From assembly GCF_023333585.1 (NCBI RefSeq), contig NZ_JAIQZN010000015.1, positions 1 through 64,000 of the forward strand: 64,000 nucleotides of DNA. The letters are read 5' to 3'. The translations under genes and the position numbers were made by a program. Shown piece by piece: positions 36,669 through 49,240 of this stretch. This DNA is from Argonema antarcticum A004/B2 (GTDB lineage: Bacteria; Cyanobacteriota; Cyanobacteriia; Cyanobacteriales; Aerosakkonemataceae). The notes beneath the pieces are model-generated. The model made no database searches. It was not told where the DNA came from and saw nothing but the letters and a program-made list of their open reading frames with translations. The stretch's first letter is position 1. Each line of letters starts with the position of its first letter.

Positions 36669-37971
36669 GTGAACTACCTACACTGACCTTGCGGTACAGT
36701 GTAGGCTTCCCAACTCATTGGGGATTGCCTCAGACTTCGTAGATTTTTTACGTCCAGAAGTCTTTGGTCTTACATCCCCTCCTTGGGCAGAAGCGCTAGT
36801 TCCTAACGCCAAAAGTCGCAAACCTTCATTTTTTATATTGACCGCAGCATTGATGTCTCTATCGTGCTGCAATGAGCAGTGCGGACAATCTACAAACCTT
36901 ACACCCAAAGAGTTATAACCGTTTTGCAACATTGGGATTGGTAGTAGAGTTTCGCTACAAAGCTGAGATGAGGGAAAGAAACGATTTATTTCTTGATAAG
37001 TATGCCCAAATCTCTCAGCTTTATATTTCAGCATAGTCAGAAATATTCCCCATCCTTGGTCACTGATAGCTTTCGCCAGGTTAGGGTTCTTCACCATGTT
37101 TTTAACTGCCAAATCTTCCACACAAATTACTTGGTTTTTGTATGCTATTTTGCGAGATAGCTTGTGGAGAAAATCTTCACTAACTCTAGCTATTTTGCTA
37201 GATACTTTCGCCACTAAGCGTTTAGCTTTTTGGCGTTTATTAGATGTCTTATCCTTTTTTCTAGCTAGTTTTTTCTGTTTACGCTTTCTATTTTTCTCTA
37301 GTTTTGCTAATCGCTTCTTAGGTAGGTCATATTTTGAACCGTCAGAAGTGACTGCAAAATTCTTTAACCCAAGGTCAACACCAATAGCTTCATTAATAGC
37401 AACTACTGGTTCATCTTCTTGATTAAACAGAATAGAAGCGTAGTATCTACCATCGGCATTTTTGGATATAGTTACAGTTGTGAACTTGGCCGAGGGTAGT
37501 TCTCTGTGAAACACGGTTTTTATCATACCCAAATTACCAGGAAACTTAATCACAGAATCCTGTGGCATAAGTTTCACATTTTGAGGATACTGAATCGATT
37601 GTTTACCATGCTTGGATTTGAAGTTGGGATATTTAGCACGTCCTTCAAAGAAATTGACAAATGCACTGGAAAGATTGAACGTTACCCGTTGTAACACTTG
37701 GCTATAAGCAAGTCCTAACCATTCATATTCTTTCTTTAATCCTGGAAGCAACTTATCCATTGCCGCTTTAGAAAGCCCTTTTTCCGTTTCTCTATACGCA
37801 ACAGTAGTGGCGTTAAGCATATAATTCCACAACCATCGAGTATTACCAAAACATTGAGCCAGATAGGACTCTTGCTCATCAGTAGGATAAATTCTAACTT
37901 TGACTGCGCTATACATGGCATCGACCTTTACCGTGTTCACTTATTTGTGATAACACAAAAACTCACAGTTA
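36669..37971 (-). mobile_element. TnpB-only IS200/IS605-type element (IS1341 class)
   Basis: Right end: hairpin 36677-36705 (CCTACACTG and CAGTGTAGG arms) closed by GTGAACTAC (complement GTAGTTCAC) at 36669-36677. Probable left end: just inside a TTGAC pentamer on the minus strand (complement of 37972-37976), followed by a TTTGTG/CACAAA hairpin at 37944-37959. No TnpA is present, so movement would need one in trans. The left boundary is inferred from the hairpin and the pentamer; the right end is supported by the second copy at the window start. Confidence 0.65.
36678..37916 (-). CDS. tnpB: TnpB RNA-guided nuclease-family protein
   Basis: Cas12-like RuvC nuclease family associated with IS200/IS605 elements. 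The ATG at 37916 (MYSAVKVRIYPTDEQE) is preferred; a GTG at 37940 is upstream. All three RuvC acidic positions are present: GVDLGLKNFAV, VICVEDLAVKNM and HDRDINAAVNIKNEG. The zinc finger between the last two is abnormal. It has only one Cys in the first half (SSQLCSETLLPIP, usually CxxC), while CPHC is intact in the second half, so metal binding is probably lost. The stop codon sits in the terminal hairpin that should be part of the omega RNA. Activity is uncertain. Confidence 0.9.
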   Translation of the reverse strand: MYSAVKVRIYPTDEQESYLAQCFGNTRWLWNYMLNATTVAYRETEKGLSKAAMDKLLPGLKKEYEWLGLAYSQVLQRVTFNLSSAFVNFFEGRAKYPNFKSKHGKQSIQYPQNVKLMPQDSVIKFPGNLGMIKTVFHRELPSAKFTTVTISKNADGRYYASILFNQEDEPVVAINEAIGVDLGLKNFAVTSDGSKYDLPKKRLAKLEKNRKRKQKKLARKKDKTSNKRQKAKRLVAKVSSKIARVSEDFLHKLSRKIAYKNQVICVEDLAVKNMVKNPNLAKAISDQGWGIFLTMLKYKAERFGHTYQEINRFFPSSQLCSETLLPIPMLQNGYNSLGVRFVDCPHCSLQHDRDINAAVNIKNEGLRLLALGTSASAQGGDVRPKTSGRKKSTKSEAIPNELGSLHCTARSV

Positions 37972-39814: not shown

Positions 39815-39846
39815 AATACCGAAACTCTTCTACCCAGTCACCAGTC

Positions 39847-40006
39847 ATATCATGTCCGGTGGCATCGGTTGTCTAAAAAAAATAACTCTCTTATCTGTGT
39901 TCATCTGTGTTCATCTGTCTTCATCTGTGGTAAAAATTTAACCCTGGATTCAAACAGACAATTTCTCGCATCACGCTTACGCTACCGATACAACCGGACA
40001 TGATAT
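39847..40006 (+). mobile_element. 160-bp MITE, copy 1, with 8-bp target duplication
   Basis: Ends are inverted repeats (ATATCATGTCCGGTGGCATC and, on the other strand, ATATCATGTCCGGTTGTATC). The element is flanked by direct repeats CACCAGTC at 39839-39846 and 40007-40014, a clean target-site duplication. It contains tandem TTCATCTGTG units and encodes nothing. A near-identical copy of the same length lies inverted at 63165-63324. Confidence 0.85.
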
Positions 40007-40077
40007 CACCAGTCAAGAGTCCCCAAAAATTCGTGGTGTGACATTTGAGGGTGCGGAATATAGGTTTAACTCAGAAT

Positions 40078-40641
40078 TTAGCCATTCCTATCTTCTGGGT
40101 AAATTTGAATGCCAAGCACATCTGCGGACATCTGGCGGATTAGATCGCCGTAGGAAGATATCTGGTTTTCTAGAGAAAGACAAGGCGGTGAAGAAGAAGG
40201 AGACAGCCACAATTGGTCGAATTCTGTCCATACATGGCGTAACTCCGGGTTAATGGCGCTGTCGGCTAAGATTGCGATCGCAACTTGGTGTATACCTAAG
40301 ATCTCTTTTAAACTACCGCGCAGGTAAATTTTATCAGTCGTCACTGCCGCATCTAAGGTCAACCTGCCAGAAATTATGTCTCGGAGAGTTTCGGCTTCGC
40401 TGCGAAAATTGACTGACTCCAGTACCACCGGATATTCGCTCTCAATCTGGAGTTGTTCTCCACCATCAGCCCGCAGTCGCAACTGTATCCCATCTAAGTC
40501 GATCGCAGCCGTTTTTTCCGAAACTGTTTGCACCAAGGCTTCCCAGGTGGAACCTCCTTGGATTCGCAGGGTTTCTACCAGCCGGTGCAGCCATTGAGCT
40601 AACTGGGCGTGGCGTTCTAACGATTGATTTTGCATCACCAA
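40078..40641 (-). CDS. Hypothetical protein, last gene of the prenyl block
   Basis: The 187-residue soluble protein has a central alpha/beta portion (QLRLRADGGEQLQIESEYPV, DAAVTTDKIYLRGSLKEIL). An 'acyl/sterol-carrier-like' fold is only a guess; no family was recognised with confidence. It lies 36 bp downstream of the CrtC/AttH-like gene on the same strand, so it is probably the last cistron of the four-gene unit that starts with the polyprenyl synthetase. The DNA downstream contains the 160-bp MITE. Confidence 0.55.
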   Translation of the reverse strand: MVMQNQSLERHAQLAQWLHRLVETLRIQGGSTWEALVQTVSEKTAAIDLDGIQLRLRADGGEQLQIESEYPVVLESVNFRSEAETLRDIISGRLTLDAAVTTDKIYLRGSLKEILGIHQVAIAILADSAINPELRHVWTEFDQLWLSPSSSPPCLSLENQISSYGDLIRQMSADVLGIQIYPEDRNG

Positions 40642-40677
40642 TTCATCATGTTGGGGCGAATTTTTTGGGGACAGCTA

Positions 40678-41745
40678 TTACAGCACATATTCTCCATAAA
40701 GTAATCCCTTTGCGCGCAGAGTTTCTCCTCCGAGAAAAAGATTAATTTCAACAGTGCCTGTTACTTCCTCAATGAAAGTATATTGACGGTTTTGATTATC
40801 AGGTACTACTAACTCCATTGCCGTCTCAAAATTGACATTGAGTAACAATCGATCGCCTCGATCGTCAGCTTCTACCTGCAAGGTTTTAGGGACTTTTAAA
40901 GTGCGATCGGCAAACAGCGAAGCCATAATTCCAGGGAGACGCACTGGCATAACTGGAGAGGGTGACCACTGCCAATTAACAACTAAGGTAGAACCGAGAA
41001 AAATTTTGTGTAAATCGTTATCGAGATATACAAAAATATACGGTAATGCTTTGACAGAATGGTTTTTGTTGGTACGTTGGTCTAATACTAAAGTAAGTTG
41101 CCTGCCGTCATCGCAAACGGCAAAAGCGACAAACCATTCCCAACCGATATCTTCACCCCAACGAAAACGACCAAAGTTGCGATCGTGATAGGCAAACCAA
41201 TCGCGATCGATACTAAAGTTTTGCCCGCCTACAGATAACTCTCCAATTACTTGTAAACCTGGCACTAAGCCCCAACCGATGAAACCGCTGCCAAAAGGCG
41301 AATCCTCCGTCACCAAAAGGGGCGTGGCTTTCGCCTCTCCTTGGCAACGTATAGATAACTGCATCCTTTCATCTTGGACTTGCAGTGTCGAGTGCTTGCC
41401 ATCGATTTCCAGCAATACCCCGTTTCCCTGGATGCAAAACGGGTTTCGACGCACCATGTCGGGTTGCCATTCCAAGCTAAAAGCAGTGCCAAAGGTTGCC
41501 ATAGGGGCGTCCCCCCGGTACTCTGGAGCTATGTATTCGCTGGCTAAGTTTACCAGGAAGCTTACTTGAATCTCTCCCTGTTCTGGTTTGCCCATCAGGT
41601 TCATGTTGACCAGTATCCGTATTTTTCCCCGTCTATCCAAGAGAACTAAGTGATACCAATCTTTCCAATCGATGGGGCAGGTGGGGTCATCGAAGGGGAT
41701 GCGTAGGGCTTCAACGCGGGCGAGGAGTTGTTCGTCGATCGTCAT
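40678..41745 (-). CDS. CrtC/AttH-like lipocalin-fold enzyme (predicted hydratase or cyclase)
   Basis: The chosen start is ATG 41745 (MTIDEQLLARVEALRIPFDD), giving 355 residues; the longer open frame upstream overlaps the previous gene out of frame. The sequence pattern (WYHLVLLDRRGKIRILVNMN, FSIDRDWFAYHDRNFGRFRW, GEDIGWEWFVAFAVCDDGRQ) resembles the AttH / hydroxyneurosporene synthase (CrtC) superfamily, double lipocalin-like domains acting on isoprenoids. The D-W-x5-H-D-x-N-x-G motif is typical. The ATG overlaps the preceding TGA as ATGA, indicating translational coupling. With a polyprenyl synthetase two genes upstream, an isoprenoid substrate is likely (inference). Confidence 0.72.
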   Translation of the reverse strand: MTIDEQLLARVEALRIPFDDPTCPIDWKDWYHLVLLDRRGKIRILVNMNLMGKPEQGEIQVSFLVNLASEYIAPEYRGDAPMATFGTAFSLEWQPDMVRRNPFCIQGNGVLLEIDGKHSTLQVQDERMQLSIRCQGEAKATPLLVTEDSPFGSGFIGWGLVPGLQVIGELSVGGQNFSIDRDWFAYHDRNFGRFRWGEDIGWEWFVAFAVCDDGRQLTLVLDQRTNKNHSVKALPYIFVYLDNDLHKIFLGSTLVVNWQWSPSPVMPVRLPGIMASLFADRTLKVPKTLQVEADDRGDRLLLNVNFETAMELVVPDNQNRQYTFIEEVTGTVEINLFLGGETLRAKGLLYGEYVL

Positions 41746-43283
41746 CGCTGTAGCGATCCCCCTTCTTGGAAAACATCGTTGAGTATCGTCTCTTGGGAAG
41801 GCGTTGGGAGGGGAGAGGGTAGGCTTTTGCTTTCTGCGATCGCGTTCAAAGTAGCCGCAATTCTCGGCGATACCAAGGCGAGTCCCAGAATAACGCAACC
41901 AAACCAGCGTTCTGCATCCATACCCAAGGATGCTACGAAAGCATCTGTTGCGGTGTCCGATACCGAGAGTTCAGTATACCTCTGACCTACATTTGAGTCT
42001 GTTGGCATCAAACTCCACATCCATTGTTCGCCCAACTCAAGCCAACCACTTTGCTCTGGGACAGAGCCAACAGAACTACGATAAGCAGATGCTGCTTGCT
42101 GACTAATAGCTAACCAACGAGGAAGTTGAGCAGCCGCGAAAGCGAGTACACCATTGTTTAAAAAATGGGTGGGTTTTAACTGAGCCAGTAATTGGCTACC
42201 TGTTTGGGTGCGAGCGTATTCGTCACCTTTTTGGGACAGCAGGAGTAACAATTCTACTACTAGCCAACGAGCCGGGAATATATCCAAACCTGGTAGTGCG
42301 GTAAGCAGACTTTTGGTTGCAACGGTTGTGCGATCGATCTCTAACTCAAACACTTCGCCAGAGGCGAAATCTTTCATTTTGGTAGCAATTTGAGGCGAGA
42401 TTTGCGCCAGTCCCAAGAGGATGCCCGCCAACCAGCGATCGGTAGAGCCGCCTAGCTTTAAGATAAAGCTTTTTGCTAATAAAAGAGGAACATACATTTC
42501 CCCTTTTTTCGGCGCAGCTTCCACATTGGACGGAACCAGCTTTAACAGCCATTGCTCCCAAAGATACAGCAAACTATAACCGCCTAAAATTGTGTTCTCG
42601 CTTTTAAGGTTATCCGCAATCCAGTTGGGAATTTGAGCGGCTCTAAAGGCGATAACTCCATTCTTAAAAAAGCGCGTTAGCTTGAGTTGATTTAGTAACT
42701 GCTGACCCGGTTCAGTTTGGCCGTATTCCTCTCCTTTTTGACACAAAATCACTAAAATTTCAGCCACTAGCCAACGAGATGGAATTTTATCTAGATCCAT
42801 CAAACCTGACAACAAATCAAAGGTTGCGTCTGTTGTTCGATCTACAGCATTCGACAACCTGTTTCCCTCTGGGGAAGTAAAGGGCAAAGTAACTGGCAAG
42901 GAAACTTCCACAACTTGAGATTTATCTTTTTCCGGTTCTGGTAATAAAATCTCCAGCTCGATAGCAATACCTTCTTCCTGAATTCCCGGAAAGCGTAACC
43001 AACTCTTAATTATCTCTCCAGGTTGGAGTAGAAAAGGAATTGAGAGTTTAATTTTTTGGCTAAGTTTGCTCTCCCTATCTAGATAAAGGTAAGGGGGAGA
43101 AATACTGCTAGATACGGAGATAATGTTGCCGTTATCTACTATCCAATCATCTAGGGTAGGACGGAACAATAGGGCTTCACCTATCTGGCTATAAAGTAAC
43201 AGGTTCACAACCAAGATTGAACCTGGATAAACTTTAATTTTTAGGTGAGTAGAATTGTCTAAACTTAAGGTAATTTCACTCAT
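41742..43283 (-). CDS. Unknown protein with two tandem homologous domains
   Basis: I do not recognise this 513-residue protein. Residues 1-140 look like a beta-sandwich (ILVVNLLLYSQIGEALLFRP, LLQPGEIIKSWLRFPG). Two helical domains follow and are clearly duplicated: IPSRWLVAEILVILCQKGEE in the first (about 165-235) and FPARWLVVELLLLLSQKGDE in the second (about 340-410). They share FFKNGVIAFRAAQIPNWIA / FLNNGVLAFAAAQLPRWLA. Each copy is followed by a long hydrophobic helix and a DRWLAGILLGLAQISPQIA / ERWFGCVILGLALVSPRIA block. It lies 19 bp after the polyprenyl synthetase gene and overlaps the next by four bases, so it belongs to that operon. A scaffold or cofactor-free enzyme are both possible. 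Confidence 0.7.
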   Translation of the reverse strand: MSEITLSLDNSTHLKIKVYPGSILVVNLLLYSQIGEALLFRPTLDDWIVDNGNIISVSSSISPPYLYLDRESKLSQKIKLSIPFLLQPGEIIKSWLRFPGIQEEGIAIELEILLPEPEKDKSQVVEVSLPVTLPFTSPEGNRLSNAVDRTTDATFDLLSGLMDLDKIPSRWLVAEILVILCQKGEEYGQTEPGQQLLNQLKLTRFFKNGVIAFRAAQIPNWIADNLKSENTILGGYSLLYLWEQWLLKLVPSNVEAAPKKGEMYVPLLLAKSFILKLGGSTDRWLAGILLGLAQISPQIATKMKDFASGEVFELEIDRTTVATKSLLTALPGLDIFPARWLVVELLLLLSQKGDEYARTQTGSQLLAQLKPTHFLNNGVLAFAAAQLPRWLAISQQAASAYRSSVGSVPEQSGWLELGEQWMWSLMPTDSNVGQRYTELSVSDTATDAFVASLGMDAERWFGCVILGLALVSPRIAATLNAIAESKSLPSPLPTPSQETILNDVFQEGGSLQR

Positions 43284-43301
43284 TGATTTTTATGTACAAA
43301 T

Positions 43302-44879
43302 TCACACATTTCTATAAATCACATAATTGATTAGTTCTTTGAGAACTCGACGATCGTGGATGGAGCATCCCCATTTTTCTTCTAACCGTAGCGGAGTTTC
43401 TGGTTGAAGAAAATCTAAGCTTTCAAAAATTTCGGCTGCTTGGTTTGCCAGCGATCGGGCCACTTTCCAGCCGTGTTCGATGCTACCGCAACGCTGCATT
43501 TGATCCATAATAAAAGCGAGTTGATCGGGAGTTTTTTTCTCGCGTGGTAAGGCGAGAATTTCCAGAATCTTTTCAGACTGATCTCCACTATGTGCCAATA
43601 CATGATTCAGCATTAAGGTGCGTTTGCCTTCGTAAATATCGCCGCCAATTTCCTTACCATATGATTCAAGTTGACCTTGTAGATTCAACAAATCGTCTTG
43701 GATCTGAAACGCAATTCCCAGAATCATCCCAAATCGGCTTATGCCTGCCAACTCTTTAACCAGATCGCGATCGCTTGCTGATGGATATCCGACGATTAAA
43801 CCAATTCGACATGGAGTAATAAACGAATACCAGCAGGTTTTTTTTACGCACATCTTAAAATAATCTTGGTCGGTTAGATTTGAGGTATTGGTAGCAACCC
43901 AATCTAGTTCCATTGCCTGTCCTTCGACAGATTGCTGCGCCATAAACTCGATTTCTTGCAAAACTTTGAGCGCTTTGGCAACTCCGATAACTGACAAATT
44001 TTCTAACAATAAACCTACTGCCAAGACGTTCGTTGCATCGCCTACATTAATGGCGCGAGGAATTCCAATCATTTGGTGTAAAGTCCCCTTACCCCGCCGA
44101 GATTCAGAACCATCTTCTATGTCATCGTGAATCAGAAAAGCATTGTGATAAAGTTCTAGAGCAGATGCCGATGTCAAGGCATCGTGTCCCATTCCTCCAA
44201 CTGCCCTAGCCATACTAATACACATAGTTGGTCGCAGCATCTTGCCAGAGCGGAAGGGGTAATCTATTAATAAGTCATACAAGGGTTTATAGGAACCTGT
44301 AATGTTACTTTTAGTTTCAACAAATTCTAGGATTTTTTTTACTACTGCTAATCGGCATTCTTGTACTGCTTCATTGATAATTTTTCGATCGTACATTAAC
44401 TGTTCTTGGACACCGTTTGTAGCTTCCCCAACCTTATGGTTTTCTAGGGTTTCTCCATTTAATAGATTTGTAGGGATGTTGCTACGAGACGCGATCGCAA
44501 CTCCCCCCTGAGAAGCTAATGGCGTTGAGTTAATGCTTTGGGCAAACACAGGTAGTGTTGTGGGGTAATTCTCTGAGTATTTGTTGCTGTTTATCTTATT
44601 ACCATTTAGCTTATTTCCATTTTTTTCAAAAGCAGGGCTAGAAGCAGGCTGCTCCAACTGCTGGTAGCTTAGAGATTTATTTTCACTACTGTTGCCAATA
44701 TTGACTTCTACAGCTAGTAATGATTGATTTTCTTGTTGTTCATTTGGGAGCGCAGTGAAAATTTTAATAACTTCCTGTTGTGCAAGTTCTTTTGGTTGAC
44801 TTACTGTCTCGCGATTAGAAGAATTTACTAACAAAACCAAGAAACAAAAACATACCACAAATAAGAAAATTGCAAACAT
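43302..44879 (-). CDS. Polyprenyl synthetase with N-terminal membrane anchor
   Basis: The protein has a membrane helix at residues 2-20 (FAIFLFVVCFCFLVLLVNSS), a low-complexity linker of about 170 residues, and a trans-prenyltransferase domain (about 190-525). Substrate-binding motifs: FLIHDDIEDGSESRRGKGTL (first Asp-rich motif, complete) and FQIQDDLLNLQG, where the last Asp of DDxxD is Asn. LRPTMCISMARAVGGMGHD and GDIYEGKRTLMLNHVLA are also family features. It would condense isopentenyl diphosphate to farnesyl/geranylgeranyl or longer chains at a membrane. Free GGPP synthase (crtE) lacks such an anchor. First gene of a four-gene operon. Confidence 0.88.
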   Translation of the reverse strand: MFAIFLFVVCFCFLVLLVNSSNRETVSQPKELAQQEVIKIFTALPNEQQENQSLLAVEVNIGNSSENKSLSYQQLEQPASSPAFEKNGNKLNGNKINSNKYSENYPTTLPVFAQSINSTPLASQGGVAIASRSNIPTNLLNGETLENHKVGEATNGVQEQLMYDRKIINEAVQECRLAVVKKILEFVETKSNITGSYKPLYDLLIDYPFRSGKMLRPTMCISMARAVGGMGHDALTSASALELYHNAFLIHDDIEDGSESRRGKGTLHQMIGIPRAINVGDATNVLAVGLLLENLSVIGVAKALKVLQEIEFMAQQSVEGQAMELDWVATNTSNLTDQDYFKMCVKKTCWYSFITPCRIGLIVGYPSASDRDLVKELAGISRFGMILGIAFQIQDDLLNLQGQLESYGKEIGGDIYEGKRTLMLNHVLAHSGDQSEKILEILALPREKKTPDQLAFIMDQMQRCGSIEHGWKVARSLANQAAEIFESLDFLQPETPLRLEEKWGCSIHDRRVLKELINYVIYRNV

Positions 44880-45061: not shown

Positions 45062-46060
45062 TTACCGTCTGGCTGATTTGATATAAACACCCAGGCGAAT
45101 TAACACATTAGGCTCGCCGCCGTAGGCACCAAAAAAGCCTATTATTTCGTAACCTTGAGGTGCTTTAAATGTAAAAGATTCAACTTCTTTTTGGCTATGG
45201 CTTCCCCCAAATACCTCGGATTGAACCCCGTTCTGGGTTTTAAATTGTAAGGTTACAATATCCTGCTGCGGATACTCAGGCGCTCTTTTCCCCCACGTTC
45301 CTAAGATTTCTGTCAGATAATCTCCCGCTTCTACGCAGAATTCACCTACTTCGCCACCTGTTCCACCTGCTACTATTGACTCATATGTTTCAGGTGGGCT
45401 GGTTGCGAGATTTTCATACTGAACTTGAATGCTGTCTATCGCCCAATCAGAATGAACACGCACGGTTTTTATTTTCGATTGAGGCGTTTCGTTTTTTGGT
45501 TTGATCTCAAAATCTGCTGCCTTAATAAAGCTGCCTTGCGGCCCTTGTGTCAGAAAAGACACGGATGCTGCTGAACTTTTCTCTGGAACGGGGACAAGTT
45601 CCCATTGCTGATTAGGCGTACCGTAAGTACCGTTGACCGGGTGGGTAACAATGGGGGTCAAGGGTTCTATACCGCCCCCGAAAATATCCAGCACGAAGTC
45701 ATTGAGCTTACTTTTTATCAACCCTTCCTCAGTAATTGTCCATTGCTGATTAGGCGTACCATGAGTACCGTTTACTGGGTAAACAATTACTGCGGTAAAA
45801 GGGTCTCTTTTGCTTCCTGGAATATCTATTACGAAGCCATTAAGCCTACTTTTTATTAACCCTTCCTCAGTAATTGTCCATTGCTGATTAGGCTCTCCAT
45901 GAGTCTCCTTGATTGGGTAAACAACAAGGTGGGTCTTGGATTCCGGGTTGTTGCCAGCAACATCCAGCACAAGGCCATTGAGTTTGCTTTTTATCAGAAA
46001 GTAACCACTACTAGACTGCTCTGTAGCGGAACTAGGTGCAATCATTATTTGCTCCTTCAT
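45062..46060 (-). CDS. Lectin: ricin-type beta-trefoil plus jacalin-like domain
   Basis: The 332-residue protein has an N-terminal beta-trefoil (about residues 15-165) built from three repeats, each with LIKSKLNG-type strand starts and ending NQQWTI/NQQWEL (the QxW motif). A second domain follows (about 170-330): QGPQGSFIKAADFEIKPKNE, then GGTGGEVGEFCVEAGDYLTE and GFFGAYGGEP, a jacalin-like mannose-binding fold. No signal peptide is evident. It is a paralogue of the next gene upstream, which has the trefoil alone. A sugar-binding role in recognition or defence is inference. Confidence 0.8.
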   Translation of the reverse strand: MKEQIMIAPSSATEQSSSGYFLIKSKLNGLVLDVAGNNPESKTHLVVYPIKETHGEPNQQWTITEEGLIKSRLNGFVIDIPGSKRDPFTAVIVYPVNGTHGTPNQQWTITEEGLIKSKLNDFVLDIFGGGIEPLTPIVTHPVNGTYGTPNQQWELVPVPEKSSAASVSFLTQGPQGSFIKAADFEIKPKNETPQSKIKTVRVHSDWAIDSIQVQYENLATSPPETYESIVAGGTGGEVGEFCVEAGDYLTEILGTWGKRAPEYPQQDIVTLQFKTQNGVQSEVFGGSHSQKEVESFTFKAPQGYEIIGFFGAYGGEPNVLIRLGVYIKSARR

Positions 46061-46296: not shown

Positions 46297-46821
46297 TTAC
46301 TGAGGAACGGGGACAAGTTCCCATTGCTGATTAGGGGTACCGTGAGTACCGTTGACCGGGTGGGTAACAATGGGGGTTAAGGGTTCTATACCGCCCCCGA
46401 AAATATCCAGGACTAAGCCATTGAGCTTACTTTTTATTAACCCTTCCTCAGTAATTGTCCATTGCTGATTGGGCGTACCGTGAGTACCGTTTACCGGGTA
46501 AAGAACCACCGCTGTAAAAGGGTCTGCACTGCTTTCTGGAATATCTATTACTAAGCCATTGAGCCTACTTTTTATCAATCCATTTTCAGTAATTGTCCAT
46601 TGCTGATTAGGCTCTCCATGAGTCCCCTTAATTGGGTAAACAACAAGGTGGGTATGGGACTCCGCGATGTTGCCAGCAACATCCAGCACCAAGCCATTAA
46701 GTTTGCTTTTGATCAGGAAGTAGCGACTGCTAGACTGCTTTTCTGTGGTGCTGGGTGGGCTAATCTTTTCTTCTTTTTTAAGAAGCTTGTCTATGTTTTT
46801 TTTAAAGAATCCTTTGGCCAT
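46297..46821 (-). CDS. Ricin-type beta-trefoil lectin
   Basis: The 174-residue protein consists of a short basic N-terminus (MAKGFFKKNIDKLLKKEEK) and one beta-trefoil with three repeats (SRYFLIKSKLNGLVLDVAGN, then two LIKSRLNG/LIKSKLNG units), each ending in the QQW motif. The DNA matches the trefoil part of the neighbouring lectin almost base for base over long stretches, so the pair arose by tandem duplication, with gain or loss of the jacalin-like domain. The intergenic regions show only short C-rich repeats (CCCTGCTCCCCCTGCTCCC). Confidence 0.8.
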   Translation of the reverse strand: MAKGFFKKNIDKLLKKEEKISPPSTTEKQSSSRYFLIKSKLNGLVLDVAGNIAESHTHLVVYPIKGTHGEPNQQWTITENGLIKSRLNGLVIDIPESSADPFTAVVLYPVNGTHGTPNQQWTITEEGLIKSKLNGLVLDIFGGGIEPLTPIVTHPVNGTHGTPNQQWELVPVPQ

Positions 46822-47031: not shown

Positions 47032-48384
47032 ATGATACATCAGCAAGGCAGCGTTTCATCTAGTTTACAGAAAGGAAAAAAAATAAGCAAGCATATTCTG
47101 ATCGCTACTTTTGGTTCGCTTGGGGATTTATATCCTTACATGGCGATCGCAAAGGAGATGCGGACAAGGGGCCATCGGGCTGTCATAGCTACCAACGAGA
47201 TATACCGCCAGATGATCGAATCGGAAGGAATTGAGTTTCGGGCTATCAGACCTAACGGGTTAATCAACGTGGAAGAAGAAGGGGAGTTTATCGAGTTGCT
47301 CAGAGATTCCCAACAAGCGCTTGACTATGGTGTCAGCTATCTGATCGGGCCTCATTTGCGGGCAACTTACAGCGACTTGCTGGAACCAGTACAAGAAGCG
47401 GACTTGCTGCTAACGCACCACCTTGCTTTTGCAGGAACTCTGGCGGCTGAAAAAACTGGGACTCCCAGGGTATCCACCGCCCTGGCACCGATCTCGTTCA
47501 TGTCTGTCTACGATTTGCCGACGCTTTCACCGCTGCCGACATCTGCTTACGAAGCTGCCTTGACGCTGGTGGCTAACGACGCTAAGCATCGTTTTTTTCG
47601 GTGGAAAGCACGCTTTTGGAGTGCGCCAGTGCGGCAACTGCGGGCTGAACTGGGTTTAACGCCTTCATGCGATCCCGTATTTGAAGGTCAGCATTCACCT
47701 GAATTGGTGCTGGCTTTATTCTCCCAGATTCTGGCTGCTCCTCAACCCGACTGGCCGCCCCAAACTCGCGTGACTGGGTTTCCTTTTTACGATCGCCAAG
47801 AACATCAAGCTTTGTCTCCCGATCTGGTGAAGTTTCTGTCAGCGGGGCCCCCTCCTATTGTGTTCACTTTAGGCTCGTTAATGGTGTGGACGCCAGGGAA
47901 CTTTTACTTAGAGGGTGCCATTGCCGCCCAAAAGTTAGGCTACCGCTCGATCTTGCTGATGGGACAAGCAGCGCATAGCATTCCCGCGCACCAGCTACCA
48001 GAAGGTGCGATCGCGGTTGACTACGCCTCCCACTCGGCTCTTTTTCCTCATGTAGCTGCGATCGCCCATCACGGTGGTGTGGGAACAACAGCCCAGGCGC
48101 TGCGTGCGGGTCGTCCCATGCTGGTGGTTCCCTACGCCTACGATCAGCCGGATAACGCCGCCCGTTTGGTGAGGTTGGGAGTAGCCAGGACGATCGAACG
48201 TCAGCATTGTACAGCCGATCGTATTGCTGCCGAACTCAAACTGCTGCTGTTTGACCCCAATTATGCTGCCAAAGCTACAGAAGTCGGACATTTGCTACAG
48301 GCGGAAGATGGTGTTGGGGCGGCTTGCGATGCGATCGAAGCTTTTTTAAACGACGAGATGGGAAGGCGATCGGATAAGTCCTGA
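47032..48384 (+). CDS. UDP-sugar-dependent GT1-family glycosyltransferase
   Basis: A 450-residue GT-B-fold enzyme similar to sterol/flavonoid glucosyltransferases and to rhamnosyl/macrolide glycosyltransferases. N-terminal HILIATFGSLGDLYPYMAIA and C-terminal donor-binding HHGGVGTTAQALRAGRPMLV followed by PYAYDQPDNAARL are clear. It should attach a sugar to a small lipophilic acceptor such as a terpenoid, carotenoid or lipid at the membrane. It is divergent from the lectin genes and lies 2.1 kb from the prenyl-synthetase operon, so a link to that pathway is possible but unproven. Confidence 0.85.
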   Translation: MIHQQGSVSSSLQKGKKISKHILIATFGSLGDLYPYMAIAKEMRTRGHRAVIATNEIYRQMIESEGIEFRAIRPNGLINVEEEGEFIELLRDSQQALDYGVSYLIGPHLRATYSDLLEPVQEADLLLTHHLAFAGTLAAEKTGTPRVSTALAPISFMSVYDLPTLSPLPTSAYEAALTLVANDAKHRFFRWKARFWSAPVRQLRAELGLTPSCDPVFEGQHSPELVLALFSQILAAPQPDWPPQTRVTGFPFYDRQEHQALSPDLVKFLSAGPPPIVFTLGSLMVWTPGNFYLEGAIAAQKLGYRSILLMGQAAHSIPAHQLPEGAIAVDYASHSALFPHVAAIAHHGGVGTTAQALRAGRPMLVVPYAYDQPDNAARLVRLGVARTIERQHCTADRIAAELKLLLFDPNYAAKATEVGHLLQAEDGVGAACDAIEAFLNDEMGRRSDKS

Positions 48385-48603: not shown

Positions 48604-49170
48604 CTAATTGGATATCGGAGGGTTGGGAGTAATCAAGCTAATCAGCAGCCAAAGTACCATTACCGAAACTAAAACTAGCACTATAAGAATAAACGACCCT
48701 GCTCCCAATTGTGGGTAAGCTGAAGCTGGGCGAACTTTTTTTACCGCTAGCGATACTCCGCCACGGTTATCTGGGAGAAGATCGTCGCCAATGAAAAAGC
48801 TAACTTGGCGATCTGATGTTAGGGTAAATGATGTATTTTGAGCCTTAGCCAACGCCTGTTCGGGCGTTGAATATTTGCTAGTAGCAGGAATAGCGATCGT
48901 AAATTCACTTGAGGTTATGTTATATTCATTCACCCACCCCGTGATGCAGTTTTCTCCTTTTTCATCACATCCGGTCGTAAAATCCCAAAGACTCCACGCA
49001 TCATACTGTCCCCCTTCTGATGTGCCGACAAATCTGACTTCATAGGTTCCGGCTTTTAAGAACTGGACGACTGGATTTGCTTTATTGTTGGTCGTTGCAT
49101 CTACGTTAATAATAGTTGCGGCATCCGCCCCTGTTGATGACGTTTGAGAGGATTTAACTTGCTTTGCCAT
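48604..49170 (-). CDS. Hypothetical protein with C-terminal membrane helix
   Basis: The ATG at 49170 (MAKQVKSSQTSSTGAD) is preferred because AGGAG lies ten bases upstream; a longer frame exists. The 188-residue protein has a beta-rich body (VQFLKAGTYEVRFVGTSEGG, QYDAWSLWDF, SSEFTIAIPATSKY) and a strong C-terminal helix (FILIVLVLVSVMVLWLLISL) with a short tail, so it is tail-anchored. A Cys pair (TGCDEKGENC) may form a disulfide. I do not recognise the family. No partner is evident. Confidence 0.6.
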   Translation of the reverse strand: MAKQVKSSQTSSTGADAATIINVDATTNNKANPVVQFLKAGTYEVRFVGTSEGGQYDAWSLWDFTTGCDEKGENCITGWVNEYNITSSEFTIAIPATSKYSTPEQALAKAQNTSFTLTSDRQVSFFIGDDLLPDNRGGVSLAVKKVRPASAYPQLGAGSFILIVLVLVSVMVLWLLISLITPNPPISN

Positions 49171-49205
49171 AAGGGTTTCTCCTGTCTTCTTTCTCTTCCT
49201 TAAGA

Positions 49206-49240
49206 CCAACAACCAAATTTAAGATAAATTTGGTTGTTGG
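49206..49240. repeat. Perfect 16-bp inverted repeat in the 49171-49551 gap
   Basis: CCAACAACCAAATTTA (49206-49221) and its exact complement (49225-49240) enclose AGA. It lies 36 bp upstream of the tail-anchored protein start. It could be a regulatory hairpin or operator. The rest of the gap also holds a 9-bp GCCTCGGTA/TACCGAGGC hairpin (49471-49519) and a short repeat (49404-49435) that recurs at 40037. Confidence 0.65.

Follow-up and report, generated by a model that had tools for sequence, protein, structure and literature searches.

Inspection of the open reading frames in a 64,000-nt stretch of Argonema antarcticum A004/B2 (NZ_JAIQZN010000015.1, positions 1-64,000; GCF_023333585.1), here called the window, identified a tight run of four genes on the minus strand (40078-44879), as the first-pass annotation had described. 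In order of transcription, these encode a predicted membrane-anchored trans-polyprenyl diphosphate synthase (PPS, 43302-44879), an orphan protein with an Ig-like beta-sandwich and a tandem helical duplication (protein B, 41742-43283), a double-lipocalin protein of predicted CrtC/AttH fold that is a putative hydratase/cyclase (protein C, 40678-41745) and an SCP2-like putative lipid carrier (protein D, 40078-40641). The gap between PPS and B, given earlier as 19 bp, measures 18 bp. The 4-bp overlap reported for this run is an ATGA shared by the stop codon of B and the start codon of C, and the 36-bp spacing between C and D is reproduced when the TTG start of D is taken. The ATG at 41745 was assigned as the start of C and is conserved in most relatives; the mechanically generated ORF list begins this gene too early, at 41898. 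D could start at the TTG at 40641 or, based on conservation, at an ATG (Met) at 40635.

Beside this run are two minus-strand genes for lectins. The first (45062-46060) combines a RicinB beta-trefoil (RicinB_lectin_2, E = 3.5e-20) with a Jacalin domain (E = 8.2e-16) and starts without an obvious signal peptide, and the second (46297-46821) features a RicinB beta-trefoil (RicinB_lectin_2, E = 7e-24). These are followed on the plus strand by a GT1 glycosyltransferase (GT, 47032-48384). An IS605-type OrfB/TnpB gene (36678-37940, minus strand) lies approximately 2 kb outside the edge of the cluster, and the region directly downstream of D (39830-40010) contains repeated ACAGATGAACACAGAT-like units flanked by inverted CATGTCCGGT-like copies.

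Families and folds of the encoded proteins

A Pfam search matched PPS to PF00348 (E = 1.7e-54, 185 bits against a curated cut-off of 27), and its nearest solved relative is the Thermus GGPP synthase 1wmw (E = 2.4e-51). The window protein consists of an N-terminal hydrophobic segment, a variable linker of approximately 150 residues and a catalytic domain that carries the metal-binding motifs DDIED and DDLLN. Across 20 orthologs the catalytic domain is strongly conserved, and all 20 feature DDI(E/Q)D and DDLLN, while the long, low-complexity linker spans a few tens of residues in some and several hundred in others. Based on its sequence, PPS is assigned to the trans-polyprenyl diphosphate synthases with a catalytic domain that appears intact. 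The earlier proposal of a membrane-anchored polyprenyl synthetase is backed by the PF00348 match and by a hydrophobic N-terminus in nearly all orthologs, the feature being missing from one truncated copy. In Planktothrix rubescens (L025:7310-8407), the PPS gene is interrupted by an in-frame TAA close to its beginning, and its open frame lacks the N-terminal anchor. In two Oscillatoria loci (L015:5506-7977 and L016:5681-8254), the linker has grown to several hundred residues by tandem ASSHENLQGAGTAHWVLV-like repeats.

Protein B, which had been called unrecognised, indeed has no significant family in Pfam, NCBIfam, PHROGs or PADLOC. Its predicted model (pLDDT 71) begins with an Ig-like beta-sandwich and continues as two repeats of nine helices each, and profile-profile comparison of these tandem helical domains (approximately 165 residues each, 40% identical, E = 7.7e-60) confirmed the domain duplication noted previously. 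Among the matches listed in a fold search, all were drawn solely by the N-terminal beta-sandwich (Z ≤ 9.9), which is a common Ig-like arrangement. No terpene-synthase motif was found in B, and a profile comparison of its helical repeats with the catalytic domain of PPS shows no relation between them. The B family is an orphan at the heart of the cluster.

The predicted model of protein C (pLDDT 86.7) places it in the CrtC/AttH double-lipocalin superfamily, with fold matches of Z 22.8-25.9 over 280-295 of its 355 residues, while the next unrelated matches score Z ≤ 8.7. The best matches have closely spaced scores and comprise AttH NE1406 (2ich), CghA, Fsa2, Phm7, kievitone hydratase (7a0q/7a0t) and a 25-phosphosteroid lyase (9fzn). 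The first-pass annotation proposed a lipocalin-type CrtC/AttH hydratase/cyclase; the fold holds over the full length of the protein, but the isoprenoid substrate does not follow from it, since this fold also includes non-isoprenoid enzymes such as the Diels-Alderases CghA, Fsa2 and Phm7. The window protein had no Pfam match, and PF07143, which represents CrtC proper, was matched by none of 20 members of the C family in Pfam. Profile-profile comparison with PF07143 relatives gave a weak match that is full-length and co-linear (E = 2e-4, whereas the reversed control gave 0.5).

The motif YHD(R/H)NFG is invariant in C across all 22 loci described below, and GWEW is a further invariant motif. Essential residues of Rubrivivax CrtC are H239, W241, Y266 and D268, where D268 is the proposed acid that protonates the double bond (PMC4717167), and kievitone hydratase adds water to a prenyl group (PMC5805349). 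The invariant Y186 and D188 of C form a Y-x-D at the profile-aligned position of CrtC and the invariant W158 is a possible counterpart of the CrtC Trp, but the catalytic His (H239) has no evident counterpart at the aligned place. C thus shares with CrtC/AttH-fold enzymes a full-length double-barrel fold, the Tyr-x-Asp of CrtC and a linkage to isoprenoid genes, yet differs from them in its low identity (9-14%), the lack of a PF07143 match, the His that is not evident and the lack of carotenoid genes in its company.

Protein D is a borderline candidate for an SCP2-like lipid carrier. The window protein scores below the curated cut-off of PF02036 (E = 0.0023, 18.7 bits against 21.3), whereas one ortholog scores above it (E = 0.00021, 22.0 bits), and the sole PDB match of D, a weak one, is a solved SCP2. 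GT is a GT1/GT28-like glycosyltransferase that exceeded the cut-offs of four Pfam models, including EryCIII-like_C (E = 7.4e-16). Its nearest solved relative is the yeast sterol 3-beta-glucosyltransferase UGT51 (5xvm, E = 1.6e-23). GT matches UGT51 and MGT-type GT1 enzymes over nearly its full length and shares their HHGG donor motif, which is present as HHGG(V/M)GT in every complete GT ortholog of the cluster, but it falls below the NCBIfam subfamily cut-offs.

Conservation and distribution of the gene set

A scan with C as the query, using one genome per species, returned 21 further loci, all of them cyanobacterial. PPS is encoded in 19 of these, D in 15 and GT likewise in 15, or in 16 if a copy immediately outside one of the loci is counted. 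When the ORFs of all 22 loci, including the window, were clustered, B and C were each found in 22/22, PPS in 20/22 and GT and D in 16/22 each, where several of the missing members fall at contig ends. PPS, B and C are therefore neighbours in many other genomes. Together with the CrtC/AttH fold of C, this means that neither outcome named beforehand as refuting the operon proposal was obtained. B adjoins C in nearly all loci, with the exact 4-bp overlap in most, while D, GT and the lectins shift place and strand to give several gene orders, and in many loci the transcription of GT and D is separate from that of the core. As the positions of these genes differ from locus to locus while the genes are retained, it is the set that is conserved and not its order.

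This association was also visible at the level of whole genomes. In a sample of 244 cyanobacterial genomes, the same two encode PPS, B and C, and no other genome has any of the three; in the second of these two, a contig end splits the set, so that D and PPS are on one contig while another carries B, C, a lectin and GT. Profile searches for distant relatives of B and of C in the 244 genomes yielded marginal, short matches only. D was found in three genomes, namely both cluster genomes and one more. Full-length GT homologs with over 50% identity are confined to the same two genomes. Other genomes have weaker or incomplete copies, several of which contain internal stops, and three genomes that lack PPS, B and C encode GT homologs with 44-47% identity. 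The first-pass annotation had suggested that the GT 2 kb away could decorate the product. Its membership is supported by the best GT ortholog sitting at the cluster in 8/8 whole genomes searched, in one case approximately 0.9 kb beyond the fetched locus.

Each of nine cluster genomes encodes a single cluster-type PPS that is 64-82% identical to the window protein in the aligned part (9/9). Every one of these genomes also has at least two more PPS genes, which are only approximately 30% identical (9/9). The trees of the cluster genes are correlated (r 0.75-0.93, with 0/500 label shuffles as high), to which shared species history contributes. Retention in 21 other loci and exact co-occurrence together indicate an association that is more than chance. 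The cluster is a real, rare and patchily distributed unit that is larger than first described. Most hosts are filamentous cyanobacteria, and no plasmid-borne copies were found. Searches of the open literature (subscription journals were outside this search) returned no paper on the gene set.

Lectin-like genes surround the core and recur across loci. The first reading had not noted this recurrence, nor the SCP2-like nature of D. Lectins of the RicinB/LamG type are encoded in 15/22 loci and FG-GAP/ILEI proteins in 10/22, and the association of lectins with the cluster appears strong. Four genomes (G193, G039, G030 and G159) contain partial or stop-containing GT relatives and no PPS, B or C, with such a relative of D also in G193, as if the cluster had decayed there.

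Comparison with known systems

Several known systems were considered and rejected as identities for the cluster or its parts. A cyanobacterial tocopherol cyclase (PF14249) likewise acts on prenylated substrates in cyanobacteria, but C has no Pfam match to this family and no profile similarity to it (hhalign E = 0.36, as weak as the reversed control), and the Argonema genome has a separate tocopherol cyclase. A standard carotenoid cluster was rejected, as no crtB, crtI or other carotenoid genes were present among the recurrent neighbours scanned. Both results agree with the earlier statement that the locus does not match carotenoid or tocopherol clusters. The gromomycin (gro) clusters feature Rieske oxygenases and the GroF cyclase with its DLADPD motif, and are said to occur in some cyanobacteria (PMC12105684, PMC13010261). 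The gromomycin cluster, which standard mining had overlooked, resembles the present one in that a dedicated polyprenyl synthetase adjoins two 'hypothetical' proteins. However, the DLADPD motif is absent from 22/22 B and 22/22 C proteins, and no Rieske oxygenase was identified among the window neighbours and the recurrent neighbours scanned. A defence system was rejected on the lack of a PADLOC match, and a phage origin on a single marginal PHROGs match.

Candidate pathway and alternative readings

The combination of a dedicated prenyl synthase, a lipid-carrier-like D, a GT resembling sterol glucosyltransferases and a CrtC-like C is most simply read as a route to a modified, glycosylated isoprenoid lipid. 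On balance, we favour the view that these genes form a cluster dedicated to such a lipid, which is probably glycosylated; beyond the observed conservation, co-occurrence, families and folds, we infer the chemistry, the order of steps, the role of B and that of the lectins. PPS would be anchored to the membrane through its N-terminus and would make a linear prenyl diphosphate separately from the two housekeeping-type prenyl synthases. B would join in at some step, most likely with a scaffolding role or as a prenyl-processing enzyme of atypical kind. In C, the Asp of the Tyr-x-Asp could protonate an isolated prenyl double bond, and water or an internal group would quench the resulting cation to give a tertiary alcohol or a ring. 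D would shuttle the hydrophobic intermediate, GT would place a sugar on the hydroxyl and the neighbouring lectins might bind that sugar or related glycans. Of the isoprenoid operon proposed in the first-pass annotation, the conserved gene set is borne out, while its isoprenoid product is a reading of the protein families. Several points count against this pathway: the CrtC His that is not evident in C, the activity of the fold on non-isoprenoid substrates, the lack of a recognised function and of a terpene-synthase motif in B, the borderline SCP2 assignment of D, the separate transcription of GT and D in many loci, the variable gene order and the GT homologs with 44-47% identity in three genomes that lack the core genes.

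The lectins lend themselves to a different explanation, in which the locus is a surface-glycan or adhesion module: a polyprenyl carrier lipid would come from PPS, a sheath or filament glycan would be built and bound by GT together with the lectins, and B and C would serve as accessory structural or lipid-binding proteins and not as biosynthetic enzymes. This would suit the mostly filamentous hosts and the many lectin-like neighbours. Among 42 neighbour proteins there are 13 RicinB, 12 LamG, 7 ILEI, 3 H-lectin and 2 Jacalin domains, as well as FG-GAP, where these proteins were taken from the loci and the window largely for their recurrence and the counts apply to that selection. However, many or most of the lectins examined begin without an obvious secretion signal, the neighbours scanned include no recognised polysaccharide flippase or polymerase, GT is more like the glycosyltransferases of small molecules and sterols than those of polysaccharides, and C retains an invariant catalytic-looking motif. 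We therefore consider a surface-glycan module unlikely.

An equally doubtful reading starts from protein C, which might be a pericyclase, a lyase or a ligand binder acting on a non-isoprenoid substrate, with the prenyl synthase supplying the side chain of a hybrid, meroterpenoid-like product. The Diels-Alderases and the phosphosteroid lyase score near the hydratase and AttH in the fold search and the CrtC His is not conserved, which would fit such a role, but the Y-x-D is invariant as in CrtC and the genes recognised as recurrent in the 22 loci include none for polyketide, peptide or aromatic biosynthesis. It is very improbable that PPS is a family-2 encapsulin cargo with its disordered N-terminal region as a cargo-loading domain: the encapsulin-cargo polyprenyl transferase model NF041169 is its second-best NCBIfam match and the linker is long and low in complexity, but that match scores 159.7 bits where the cut-off is 450, what is conserved at the N-terminus is a hydrophobic anchor and the neighbours that were identified include no encapsulin.

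If the glycosylated isoprenoid reading is correct, the cluster would represent a dedicated, patchily inherited isoprenoid pathway of cyanobacteria, among them genera that form blooms or are used as food (Planktothrix, Arthrospira, Microseira and Okeania). It would comprise a third prenyl synthase tethered to the membrane, a CrtC-fold enzyme of divergent sequence, the orphan protein family and a linked arsenal of lectins, and the named carrier strains open the connection of lipid biosynthesis with sugar-binding proteins to direct testing. A bolder version, which we regard as speculative and rather unlikely, is that B represents a new class of prenyl-processing enzyme, with a duplicated helical domain outside the known terpene synthase and prenyltransferase families, and that the product is a cyanobacterial isoprenoid glycoside not seen before that is recognised by the clustered leaderless lectins.

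Further genes were observed near the cluster. In the window, a minus-strand gene (48604-49212) encodes a 202-aa protein that has no Pfam match and features a hydrophobic C-terminal segment; relatives lie near the cluster in two other loci (L010 and L027), and this may be a further occasional member. Pentapeptide-repeat proteins are encoded beside PPS in Arthrospira-type and Planktothrix loci (L019:4466-5731, L021:5083-6345 and L025:4825-5313). An alpha/beta hydrolase is encoded near the cluster in three loci (L009:2-793, L010:485-1723 and L027:11657-12835) and a patatin-like lipase in two (L010:2791-3876 and L028:2613-3698), and these enzymes might act on the cluster product or its esters.
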